From: an uncultured Verrucomicrobiota bacterium
GTDB taxonomy: Bacteria; Verrucomicrobiota; Verrucomicrobiia; Limisphaerales; JAJXZI01
Length of the DNA: 42,108 nucleotides
Direction: 5' to 3'
Assembly: GCA_903847485.1 (NCBI GenBank)
Contig: CAINDV010001020.1
Coordinates: 1 to 42,108 of the forward strand
Part shown: positions 19,453 through 24,218 of the stretch, piece after piece
Position numbering within the stretch: the first letter of the stretch is position 1
Layout: each line of letters opens with the position of its first letter
The notes under the pieces: model-generated
Databases searched by the model: none
The model's input: the letters and a program-made list of their open reading frames with translations, nothing else
Told to the model about the DNA's origin: nothing
Made by a program: the position numbers and the translations under genes

Positions 19453-19803
19453 GGGCCATTTAGAACCGACTCCTTTACGAACAAAAACCGGGGACGTGAT
19501 CTCGCGCAGGGCAGGCAGGCGTTCAACACGTCCGGGCAGGGCGGCGGGGCGGCAGGCGCTTGACGATGAGCTTGCTCTCCGGCGGGGCCGGGGCCAGAAG
19601 TTGCCAGAGACTTCCAACCCGTAGGCGTGGGCCAGCCACTCCAAGGTGGACAGACGCAACTCCCGATTCCGACCGGCCTCGACAGCTTGGTAATACTTGT
19701 AGGAAATGCCGGAACGCTCCGCGAAGGCTTCCGGCGTCAGCCCGTGAGCCGCGCGCAGTTCCCAGAGCCGGGCCAGGAGGTGCGTCAGAGTGAACTTGGC
19801 CAC
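19438..19803 (-). CDS. XRE-family HTH regulator next to the restriction-modification gene
   Basis: This is a 121-residue protein starting at a GTG (19803); no better ATG exists in frame. Residues 6-65 are an XRE helix-turn-helix: LLARLWELRAAHGLTPEAFA, then SGISYKYYQAVEAGRNRELR and LSTLEWLAHAYGLEV. The following 55 residues are arginine/serine/proline-rich and unlike a domain. The final WPLEPV and the stop come from the arm of a palindromic repeat, so the natural C terminus has probably been replaced. It is transcribed divergently from the MmeI-like gene with 76 bp between starts, the usual position for a controller-type regulator, so it may regulate that gene. This link is inference. Confidence 0.78.
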   Translation of the reverse strand: MAKFTLTHLLARLWELRAAHGLTPEAFAERSGISYKYYQAVEAGRNRELRLSTLEWLAHAYGLEVSGNFWPRPRRRASSSSSACRPAALPGRVERLPALREITSPVFVRKGVGSKWPLEPV

Positions 19804-19879
19804 TCACGCTGGTGTCGGCGCTGTCCGCCTCCAGGTCCGCCTTGCTTTTTCTGCCACCGCCGTGCCACGCTATGCCGCG

Positions 19880-22723
19880 ATGCCTCTCTCGTGGAATGAA
19901 ATCAAGCACCGCGCCATCGCCTTTTCCAACAAGTGGAAAGACGAGACCCGCGAGTCCGCCGAACGCCAGTCCTTTTGGAATGACTTCTTCAACGTCTTCG
20001 GCGTAGAACGCCGCTGCGTCGCCAGCTACGAGGAGCCGGTGAAGAAGCTCTCCGGTGACTGGGCTTACATTGATCTGTTCTGGCCCCGCACCCTGCTCGC
20101 CGAACACAAAGGCGCGGGCAAAGACCTCGGCAAAGCGCACGCCCAAGGCATGGAATACATCCGAGCCCTCGCCGACAGTGGGCGCGGCCACGAAGTCCCC
20201 CGCTACCTCATCGTCTCCGACTTCCAGCGGATTGCCATTCACGACCTGGAGCCGGGGCCAGACCCCGACGCGCCCCTCTTCCAGCGCCTGCCGCCTTCCT
20301 TCGAGTTTCCCCTGGCTGACTTCCATAAGCACATCCGCCACTTCGCCTTCATGGCGGGCTACCAACAGCACCGGCTTGATCCCGAAGATCCCGCCAACGA
20401 AGACGCCACCCGGCTTATGTGCGCCTTGCACGATGCCTTGGAGGCCGGCGAATACGGCACCGACACCACCGGCCACGCGGGCCATGAGTTAAAGCAATTC
20501 CTTGTCCGCCTGCTCTTCTGCCTCTTCGCCGAAGACAACGGCATCTTCCCCAGCCGCGCCTTACAGTTCTATCTCCAAGACCACACCGCCGCCGATGGCT
20601 CCGACCTTGGCCCGAAGCTCGGCCAACTCTTCGCCGTGCTCAACACCCCCGAAGACCGCCGCCAGAAGAATCTCGACCCGGAGTTACTCCAGTTCGCCTA
20701 CATCAATGGCGATCTCTACCGCGAGCGCCTGGCCCTTCCCGCCTTCACCACGGCCATGCGGGAGCAACTCCTCGCCTGCGCCGCCTTCGATTGGTCCCGT
20801 ATCTCTCCCGCCGTCTTCGGCAGTCTCTTTCAGGCGGTAATGGATAAGAAGGAACGCCGCCAGATCGGTGCCCACTACACCGCCGAGCGCAACATCCTCA
20901 AAGTCATCCGCTCCCTGTTCCTCGATGACCTCCGCGCCGAATTCACCCGCGCCAAAGCAGCCAAGATCGGCCAACGCGAGCGCCTTATCGCCCTCCAGAA
21001 AAAGATCGCCACCTTGCGCTTCCTTGATCCCGCTTGCGGCTGCGGCAACTTCTTGGTTATCACCTACCGTGAGTTACGCGCCTTGGAACTGGAAATCCTC
21101 CTTGCCCTCCACAGCGGCCAGCAAGAAATGACTCTCGACGAGGTCAACAAACTCTCACTCCTCGACGTGGATCAGATGTTCGGGATTGAGCTGGAGGAAT
21201 TCCCCGCCCGCATTGCCGAAGTCGCCCTCTGGCTTACCGACCACCAGGCGAACATGGCGCTCAGCGTAGCCTTCACACAGCTCTACCGTCGCATCCCGCT
21301 GCGCAAAAGCCCGCACATCCACGTCGCCAACGCCCTCCGCACCGACTGGCGCACCATCCTGCCGCCGACGGAGTGCAGCTATGTGCTCGGCAATCCGCCG
21401 TTCGTCGGGAAGCATTTGCTCAACGCCGATCAGCAAATGGATATGGATGCCGTGTGGGGAGAATTGAACGGCGCTGGCTTTCTCGACTACGTGACCGCGT
21501 GGTATCGCAAAGCCGCCGAATACATCCACGGAACTCGCATCGTAGTCGGCTTTGTGTCCACGAACTCCATCTCACAAGGCGAGCAGGTCGGCATTCTCTG
21601 GACGGAACTTTTCAACCGCTTCCGCATCAAGATCCACTTCGCACACCGGACTTTCGCGTGGGTGAGTGAAGCGCGCGGAAAAGCACACGTCCATGTCGTC
21701 GTCATCGGCTTTGGATGCTTCGATGTTCCGCAGAAGCGCATTTACGATTACGACACTGACCCAGAAACACCGACAATCTCTCCCGCCGCGAACATCAGCC
21801 CCTATCTCATCGAAGGCTCTGACTCCGCCTTGCCCATTCGGCGGAAACCCATCTGCAATGTTCCGCCAATCGTGAACGGGAACAAGCCAGCCGACGGCGG
21901 ATTTCTTATCGTAGAGCAAGAGGATCGTGCGGACTTCGTCCGAGATAACCCCGGCGTCGCGCCGTATCTCAAGCCTATGCTCAGTGCCGACCAATACCTC
22001 AATGGCGAGGAACGCTGGGTTCTATGGCTTGTTGGTGCTCCGCCGCAACTTGTTCGCGACAATCCCGGATTGCGCGCCCGCGTTGAAGGCGTTCGTGAGT
22101 TTCGTTTGAAGAGCCCGAAGGCTTCCACGAAGCGCATGGCGGACAAGCCAACGCTGTTCGACCAAATCCGTCAGCCGACGCGGCCTTACATTGTCATTCC
22201 GCGACACTCCTCAGAGAACCGGCGCTACATCCCGTTTGGATACTTCGGCCCGGAGACAATTATCAGCGACAGTTGCACCGCCGTTGCTGATGCCGAAATA
22301 TTCCACTTTGGCGTTTTGTCTTCAGGAATGCACATGGCTTGGATGAAGCAAGTCTGCGGAAGATTGGAGAGCCGATTCCGCTACTCCAACAAGATCGTTT
22401 ACAACAACTACCCCTGGCCCATAACGCCGACGGCGGTTCAGCGTATGGCGGTGGAGAAGGCCGCCCAGCGGGTGCTCGACGCCCGCGCCGCCTACCCCGC
22501 CGCCACGCTGGCCGACTTATACGACCCGCTGGCCATGCCGCCCGCCCTAGCTGCCGCCCACACCGCGCTGGATAAGGCGGTGGATAAGTGCTACCGCAGC
22601 GACCCTTTCCCCAGCGACCGCGCCCGGGTGGAGCACCTCTTCGCCCTGTACGAGCAACTCACCGCCCCGCTTGCCCCCACCGCCCGCCCCAAAACCCGGC
22701 GGCGCAAGAGCAACTCTCCCTGA
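19880..22723 (+). CDS. MmeI-like type IIL restriction-modification enzyme (nuclease plus DNA methyltransferase)
   Basis: The protein has 947 residues from the ATG at 19880; an in-frame GTG at 19790 would overlap the divergent regulator. The N terminus carries a PD-(D/E)xK nuclease, D65-X9-E75-H-K77 (IDLFWPRTLLAEHKG), the same spacing as in MmeI. Residues 170-310 are a helical connector. The N6-adenine methyltransferase has motif I LDPACGCGNFL near residue 382 and motif IV GNPPF near 505. A target-recognition region and a C-terminal helical part (LDARAAYPAATLADLYDP) follow, as in the family. One chain should both methylate and cut. Length and motifs look intact. It is one of very few plus-strand genes and sits between repeat-rich segments, consistent with horizontal gain. 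Confidence 0.92.
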   Translation: MPLSWNEIKHRAIAFSNKWKDETRESAERQSFWNDFFNVFGVERRCVASYEEPVKKLSGDWAYIDLFWPRTLLAEHKGAGKDLGKAHAQGMEYIRALADSGRGHEVPRYLIVSDFQRIAIHDLEPGPDPDAPLFQRLPPSFEFPLADFHKHIRHFAFMAGYQQHRLDPEDPANEDATRLMCALHDALEAGEYGTDTTGHAGHELKQFLVRLLFCLFAEDNGIFPSRALQFYLQDHTAADGSDLGPKLGQLFAVLNTPEDRRQKNLDPELLQFAYINGDLYRERLALPAFTTAMREQLLACAAFDWSRISPAVFGSLFQAVMDKKERRQIGAHYTAERNILKVIRSLFLDDLRAEFTRAKAAKIGQRERLIALQKKIATLRFLDPACGCGNFLVITYRELRALELEILLALHSGQQEMTLDEVNKLSLLDVDQMFGIELEEFPARIAEVALWLTDHQANMALSVAFTQLYRRIPLRKSPHIHVANALRTDWRTILPPTECSYVLGNPPFVGKHLLNADQQMDMDAVWGELNGAGFLDYVTAWYRKAAEYIHGTRIVVGFVSTNSISQGEQVGILWTELFNRFRIKIHFAHRTFAWVSEARGKAHVHVVVIGFGCFDVPQKRIYDYDTDPETPTISPAANISPYLIEGSDSALPIRRKPICNVPPIVNGNKPADGGFLIVEQEDRADFVRDNPGVAPYLKPMLSADQYLNGEERWVLWLVGAPPQLVRDNPGLRARVEGVREFRLKSPKASTKRMADKPTLFDQIRQPTRPYIVIPRHSSENRRYIPFGYFGPETIISDSCTAVADAEIFHFGVLSSGMHMAWMKQVCGRLESRFRYSNKIVYNNYPWPITPTAVQRMAVEKAAQRVLDARAAYPAATLADLYDPLAMPPALAAAHTALDKAVDKCYRSDPFPSDRARVEHLFALYEQLTAPLAPTARPKTRRRKSNSP

Positions 22724-23026: not shown

Positions 23027-23255
23027 TCCGCCCCCTTCGCGCTTATTGGCCGGGACGCCTACGCCGGGGGCCTCCACGGCCCCCCCAGTGCCGGGCCGGC
23101 GTGGAAGGGTTCGCGGCGCATGGGAAAGATTGTCTTGGCTGGCGTTTTCAACGATTATTGGAACTCTTCGGCGGCGGTGCCATAACAAATCTTGCAGGTT
23201 CGCGGAAATCGCCTACAAACCCCTTGCGGCACAAGCGCAAGCGAGAGCCGACCCC

Positions 23256-23577
23256 GCCGAAAGGCATTGGTGGCAACTAGGTGGTGGTGGTGCCGTTCCA
23301 TTTCGCAATGCGGGCATCGGACGCCTGCCGCAAGGCATTGGTGACCTGGTGATCTCGTTCCCAAACTTTTTGAGTTTTTGAGTTTCGGCTTCGCTCCGCC
23401 GAAAGGCATTGGCGACAACACCGGAGTCAAGCGCACATTCGTCTGGCCATAATAGTTCCCGCCCCACCGCCGAAAGGCATTGGTGACTTGATGGAACATA
23501 AAGGGGTCAGTTCTTGGTATTGATAAGTGAGGCGGAGCGTAGCGGGCACCGGCCCGCCGCCGAAAGGCATTGGTGAC
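23256..23577 (+). repeat. five-copy regularly spaced hairpin repeat (period 71 nt), CRISPR-like but not CRISPR
   Basis: The 19-nt core GCCGAAAGGCATTGGTGAC occurs at 23256, 23327, 23398, 23469 and 23559, with start-to-start distances 71, 71, 71 and 90. Copies differ at one or two bases. The intervening 52 or 71 nt are unrelated to each other. The first ten bases form GCC-loop-GGC with a GAAA loop, GCAA in copy 2; both are GNRA tetraloops on the plus strand. The core is shorter than most CRISPR repeats and there are no cas genes nearby. The 23027-23255 stretch ahead of it shows no gene. Confidence 0.82.
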
Positions 23578-23744
23578 ACAAAAATTGGTTTTGACTTGGT
23601 TTGACCAGGTTTAACTAAATGGCAGTGGTCCGACGGGCGAGGGGCTGGCGACTCCTCACCCTGCCCTCTCCTCGACCGAGGAGGAGAGGGTGGAGCGGCC
23701 ACGGATGGCGCGGGTGGCGCGGATGGCGGGCGGGGTTTGCAGCC

Positions 23745-23822
23745 GTAGCGGCGTCTCGGCAGAGCGCCGGATTCTTGGCCCGAGCAAGGGAAGTTGGCGG
23801 CGGTCTGCCGACGCGCCGCTAC
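23745..23822. repeat. palindromic element with GTAGCGGCG arms
   Basis: Arms of 19 bp at 23745-23763 and 23804-23822 match at 17 positions. A shorter hairpin (CCCTCTCCTC / GAGGAGAGGG) lies just before it near 23665-23692. Apart from these, 23578-23924 shows no gene I can support. Confidence 0.7.
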
Positions 23823-23924
23823 GCTGGCAGGGGCGGGAAAAGCCGCCGGAATGGCGGTGGATGGGTTGGTTTGGGCGATTTGGGGCGTTTGGCGGTGGAA
23901 ATCGCGCAAGTTGTTGCAAATGAG

Positions 23925-24218
23925 GCATCTAGGCAGAAACACAAGGCTTCTAGGCAGCGGTACAAGGTTTCTAGGCTGCCAAATAAGCCTTCACGGCACG
24001 CCAACAGGACTTCACGGCTGGCGAACATGGTTTCCAGGCTGCGAAACAGCGTTCCACGATTGCCGGACATGGCTTCACGGAACCGGGACAGCATTCCACG
24101 GCTGCCGGATGGCGCTTCAAGGTTACGCCACGGGATTCCCAGGCAGCGGAACGCGGCTTCACGGTTGCGCCACGGGCCTTCACGGCTGAGAAACAGATTT
24201 CCAAGGCTGGTGGATCGC
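23925..24218. repeat. 21-nt tandem repeat array, 14 units in exact register
   Basis: Fourteen consecutive 21-nt units, without a single insertion or deletion, follow the rough pattern GCTTCACGGCTGCGGAACATG. A fifteenth degenerate unit occupies 24219-24239. Units differ from each other at many positions but keep TTC-(A/C)-(A/C)-GG near their start. Because 21 is a multiple of three, each strand has open frames through it: a heptad x-S-R-L-x-x-x on plus and x-L-E-x-(L/M)-F-x on minus. The array runs straight into a coupling-protein remnant on the plus strand. Confidence 0.88.

Follow-up and report, generated by a model that had tools for sequence, protein, structure and literature searches.

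The window, by which we mean the whole 42,108-nt stretch analysed, from an uncultured Verrucomicrobiota bacterium, carries five copies of a 19-nt core on the plus strand, at 23256, 23327, 23398, 23469 and 23559. The steps of 71, 71, 71 and 90 nt reported in the initial annotation were borne out. Every copy lies within one mismatch of GCCGAAAGGCATTGGTGAC; over 100 dinucleotide shuffles the chance expectation was 0.03 matches, and no shuffle contained five copies. Reading the array on the plus strand, as had been proposed, is right, and the hairpin loop of copy 2 is indeed GCAA. The array neighbours a MmeI-like enzyme, the other neighbours being ordinary genes. A search of the window found no tRNA and no Rfam family, and a domain scan of its larger open reading frames found no cas domain, and no cas gene adjoining the array.

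Two points of the original description needed amendment. The 19-nt core stands, but likeness extends beyond it: 18 further nt on the 5' side (GCGGGCAYCGG...), the norm in a second array of the same genome on contig C136, are retained in copies 2 and 5. The DNA between copies, described as unrelated, is so only in part, as several inserts have kin elsewhere in the host genome. The features are the following.

19790-22723: MmeI-like enzyme
23066-23255, plus strand: CRISPR leader, homologous to that of the C136 array (79% over 183 nt)
23256-23274, plus strand: repeat 1, 3' half only (hairpin GCC-GAAA-GGC and ATTGGTGGC handle region); 5' half lost
23275-23308, plus strand: spacer 1, 34 nt; best host match 20 nt, E 0.03, not strong
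23309-23345, plus strand: repeat 2, both halves; 5' half 12/18 against the consensus; loop GCAA
23346-23397, plus strand: insert 2; its last ~32 nt (23366-23397) match a dispersed host repeat, up to the core
23398-23416, plus strand: repeat 3, 3' half only
23417-23468, plus strand: insert 3, antisense to RCC1-repeat genes (WGGNYYGQTNV); homology enters the 5'-half slot
23469-23487, plus strand: repeat 4, 3' half only
23488-23540, plus strand: spacer 4, 53 nt, like a dispersed host GGGGTCAGTTCTTGGTATTGATAA element (80-90% over 40-51 nt)
23541-23577, plus strand: repeat 5, complete, 37 nt, AGCGGGCACCGGCCCGCC-GCCGAAAGGCATTGGTGAC; 36 nt at 97% to the C136 repeats

The 90-nt step arises because the 53-nt spacer 4 is followed by a full repeat 5. 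At repeat 1, the slot of the 5' half agrees with the consensus at 5/18 positions, and is gapped when aligned to C136. The end of insert 2, of which dispersed host copies show 87-96% identity, occupies the slot expected for the repeat 5' half, where 17/18 positions are identical to L213.

Searching the organism's own assembly (9.0 Mb in 1379 contigs, a draft, 76% complete with 5% contamination) located the core in one other place only, contig C136. There, eight copies lie 71-76 nt apart and are followed by a truncated ninth, and the repeat is longer than the core, GGCGGGCAYCGGCCCGCC-GCCGAAAGGCATTGGTGAC. Divergent from this array are genes for Cas10/Cmr2 (E 3e-60, GGDD present), Cmr3, Cmr4, Cmr5, Cmr6 and Cmr1, a type III-B operon that looks complete, so that a Cas10/Cmr operon is linked to an array of the same repeat. 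A DUF6036 nucleotidyltransferase gene also lies inside the operon, between Cmr4 and Cmr3 (L009 4890-5549, minus strand). The 183 nt preceding the window array are 79% identical to C136:10695-10877, the similarity ending at the first repeat; this homology marks the sequence preceding the two arrays as a CRISPR leader that they share. By eye, its motif CTTGC...CTACAAA resembles CTTGCGCAGTTG...GGTTACAAA, found directly before the first repeat in other species.

The core was present in 13 of 58 relatives, several of which have long regular arrays, the largest with 74 units (G014). Relatives' arrays have normal repeats of 36-37 nt and spacers of 35-40 nt, and keep a fixed period (median 71-77 nt), as the initial annotation had expected of homologous arrays. 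Those in named genomes come mostly from Verrucomicrobia, Akkermansiaceae, Chthoniobacterales, Methylacidimicrobium and Lentisphaeria records, many of them MAGs; stray single matches beyond these groups are unproven. About 49 regular arrays gave 42 distinct consensus repeats, in which the core holds 2 bits per position except at positions 12, 15 and 16. The first 18 nt of the repeat vary from species to species (0.1-1.4 bits). These 18 nt are nonetheless non-random, because a stem of at least 4 pairs is possible in 23/40 (10 ± 2.3 in shuffles, maximum 18), and the mean folding energy is -3.5 versus -1.6 in shuffles. Some sister arrays in other genomes adjoin Cas1 or Card1 genes; Cmr-like genes were seen by eye in L044, L046, L048 and L050, and Cas1 in L048, L050 and L052.

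Sequence comparison thus identifies the element as the constant 3' half of a CRISPR repeat. It had been held that the locus only resembles CRISPR and lacks cas genes. This is wrong, since the core is the 3' half of the repeat in about 49 arrays and the array of the same genome adjoins Cmr genes; the cores also prove to belong to a repeat of known kind, an outcome the annotation itself had named as speaking against its reading. A search of the accessible literature returned nothing on this repeat sequence or on III-B repeats of Verrucomicrobia. The family contains other arrangements as well. In L101, an array of 66 units interleaves variants of the 5' half (GGGCC.., GTGCC.., CTGCC..), keeping a hairpin in each and the 3' half constant, which suggests a mixing of arrays. 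In L260 (G035:C99, 3723-4765, minus strand) the core stands in mid-repeat, as GTGCTTCTT-core-GACAGGAAC, and from this sequence the core hairpin appears to be used in a second repeat layout.

In most arrays elsewhere, identity to the consensus is 90-100% in both halves of the repeat. Over the 13 repeats of the two arrays in this genome, the corresponding figures are 97% in the core and 67% in the 5' half. Window copies 1, 3 and 4 and C136 copies 5 and 6 lack the 5' half; within the window, only copies 2 and 5 retain it. Four inserts, 2 and 3 of the window and 4 and 5 of C136, show homology to other sequences through the 5'-half slot as far as the core, the period still being 71-73 nt. The window array consists of regularly spaced direct repeats with unique spacers and has a leader on one side, and its repeats are not near-identical over their full length. 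We file it as a degenerate CRISPR array because its relatives are intact. An insertion at the boundary of the repeat halves, duplicating the core and about 17 nt, was considered and rejected; it predicts similar starts in neighbouring inserts, which occur only in C136 inserts 4 and 5.

Taken together, the window locus is almost certainly a short degenerate CRISPR array belonging to a type III-B (Cmr) system whose genes lie on a separate contig of the genome. It shares with type III-B arrays the 36-37-nt repeat, the hairpin before a presumed 8-nt handle, spacers of ~35-38 nt, the leader, a Cas10/Cmr operon in the genome and guides antisense to genes. It differs from them in that the locus is without cas genes, most 5' halves are lost and the spacers resemble host multicopy sequences. 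The kind of element is known; what is noteworthy here is the half-repeat state together with host-like antisense spacers. Searches that require near-identical 30-nt repeats can overlook arrays retaining the guide-making half.

The hairpin sequence GCC-GAAA-GGC is invariant in 42/42 consensus repeats, and the GNRA rule inferred from copy 2 holds in the homologous loops, GAAA in every one. Across the 13 repeats of this genome the stem is unchanged, and the loop differs once (GAAA to GCAA). Stem covariation is uninformative, because the stem never varies among the 42 consensus repeats. It is very likely that the GNRA-type hairpin is a genuine RNA element. The hairpin is followed on its 3' side by ATTGGTGAC, one base longer than the 8-nt handle of type I/III crRNAs, and the predicted 5' handle before the spacers is TTGGTGAC/TTGGCGAC. 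Cas6-type cleavage is placed at the hairpin foot, and type I and III crRNAs carry an 8-nt handle (PMC3783184), as is also well established. The hairpin here, just before the expected handle, resembles such a site and is a putative Cas6 processing site.

Besides the Cmr operon, Cas1 matches mark three systems that by eye look like Cas9, I-E-like and I-G-like ones; a further Cas1 match marks a Cas6-RT-Cas1 fusion (L197, G000:C228, 3-3182, plus strand; open frame of 1059 aa with a YADD motif). The only Cas6 domain found by a PF10040 search of the genome is the one in this fusion. Contig C228 ends in GCCAAACGGCATGGGGGTCCGGGCCTCCGTTGTGAC, like the repeats beside the fusion's relatives in G035, and those relatives use a different repeat, in G035 GCCAAACGGC...GTTGTGAC. 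Cas6-RT-Cas1 systems of the Marinomonas type acquire spacers from RNA (PMC5576922, PMC11014452); the presence of a fusion here is a likeness that could explain transcript-derived spacers, whereas the gene in G035, and apparently here too, adjoins another repeat than the core. RNA spacer uptake by the organism's own fusion was not adopted as the source of host-like spacers, since both the relatives and the organism's own contig carry another repeat.

Of the 11 inserts in the two arrays, 6 have matches (E<0.002) at other sites of the host genome, to RCC1 repeats, an FGE-sulfatase, a DruA-domain gene, a DDE transposase and two dispersed elements (gene families by Pfam); local alignment adds C136 insert 5 as a seventh, which is FGE-like. 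Identity of these matches is 79-96%. All five inserts with a coding match are antisense to the gene (RCC1, FGE twice, DruA and DDE transposase), a small number, with the C136 array holding four of the five, and the two FGE inserts, 89% alike, are not independent. As controls, 0/74 spacers of G014 matched their own genome or this genome outside arrays (E<0.1), and 2/12 random 53-mers of the window matched elsewhere in the host (E<0.001). The excess of host matches is clear relative to the G014 array and modest relative to random host DNA.

Phage and plasmid records gave no significant match, and a phage origin of the inserts was rejected; viral contigs yielded three 20-mer matches, weak leads at most. 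Spacer 1 matches L269 exactly over 20 nt, in antisense to a portal-like phage gene, a match regarded as weak. The match in L270 falls in frame at the end of a DnaB-like helicase (DAEWDNL) and is a lead only, and the L271 match is not in frame and appears fortuitous.

In type III systems, the guide, which carries the 8-nt handle, base-pairs with a transcript, and targeting is restricted to transcripts from the complementary strand (PMC5576922). The antisense orientation of all five coding matches fits this requirement. Antisense host-matching spacers would be autoimmune at full match, and in Marinomonas there is selection against host-derived antisense spacers (PMC5576922); the matches here are of 79-96%. 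This imperfection may explain how host-like guides are tolerated, or the guides may stem from mobile relatives of the matched genes. Should the guides act, a type III CRISPR system would here be directed against its host's repeated genes, a situation otherwise expected to be counter-selected.

Our preferred reading, held tentatively and at somewhat under even confidence, is that the array still makes guides and no longer grows. Transcription would proceed on the plus strand, each core folding into the GCC-GAAA-GGC hairpin. A Cas6-type nuclease would cut at the 3' foot of the hairpin, leaving an 8-nt handle of the TTGGTGAC type on each guide, and the guides would load into Cas10/Cmr and recognise complementary transcripts. 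The 5' half of the repeat would have decayed or been overwritten in this genome, with hairpin and handle kept. The kept half would correspond to the needs of processing and loading; the lost half, outside the mature guide, probably served uptake. Most guides would then be antisense and similar to gene families repeated in the host or its mobile elements. Such a locus would divide a single repeat naturally into two sections, one retained for processing and the other perhaps needed only for uptake.

The main rival, a good deal short of probable and still to be taken seriously, is a dead array, a III-B relic in plain decay that makes no guides and whose core conservation reflects chance or recency. 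The decayed 5' halves, the odd 90-nt unit, the absence of cas domains from the larger window ORFs, the truncated terminal repeat of C136 and, by eye, some extra sequence between the leader motif and the first repeat all agree with such a relic. Uniform decay, however, would affect both halves, and across the 13 repeats the core is far better preserved, with an unchanged stem, the same pattern appearing in two arrays; a sample of 5 + 8 repeats is too small to establish that the guide half is under selection.

Another explanation, which we consider unlikely, is a domesticated guide set with degenerate repeats of the CreA/scaRNA type, whose crRNAs would damp multicopy host families (RCC1, FGE, transposons) by partial complementarity. 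It draws on the six inserts that match multicopy host families, on the uniform antisense orientation of the coding ones, on the lack of such matches in G014, and on the precedent of CreTA, whose repeats keep the handle and lose the adaptation anchors (PMC9458426). In CreTA and ectopic degenerate repeats, as here, degeneration strikes where only adaptation needs the sequence, the handle is kept and the match to a host gene is partial (PMC9458426). Yet CreTA loci contain one or two repeats together with a linked toxin and were studied with type I, whereas these arrays have 5-8 units and belong to type III-B. Moreover, matches of 79-96% may derive from related mobile elements, transposase and DruA genes are ordinary CRISPR prey, and the random-fragment control weakens the contrast.

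A broader proposal can be offered as speculation of low probability. Verrucomicrobiota would possess a two-module family of III-B repeats, the 3' module fixed (Cas6 hairpin and handle) and the 5' module free, mostly with a second hairpin; in this genome the 5' module would have been dispensed with and spacers would run through its place, giving frozen guides antisense to host multicopy families. A non-CRISPR family of RNA elements with GNRA hairpins, as first proposed from the short conserved part within the window locus, is highly improbable and was rejected in view of the full-length repeats, the leader, the Cmr and Cas1 genes adjacent to sister arrays in the same and related genomes, and the lack of an Rfam match.

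Two further repeats lie beyond the array within the window. At 23931-24186, about 12 imperfect 21-nt repeats, AGGCAGCGGTACAAGGTTTCT-like and without a Pfam match, would encode a peptide with a 7-residue period. At 23744-23823, a 26-nt inverted repeat (88%; CGTAGCGGCG.../...CGCCGCTACG, gap of 28 nt) is probably a dispersed element.
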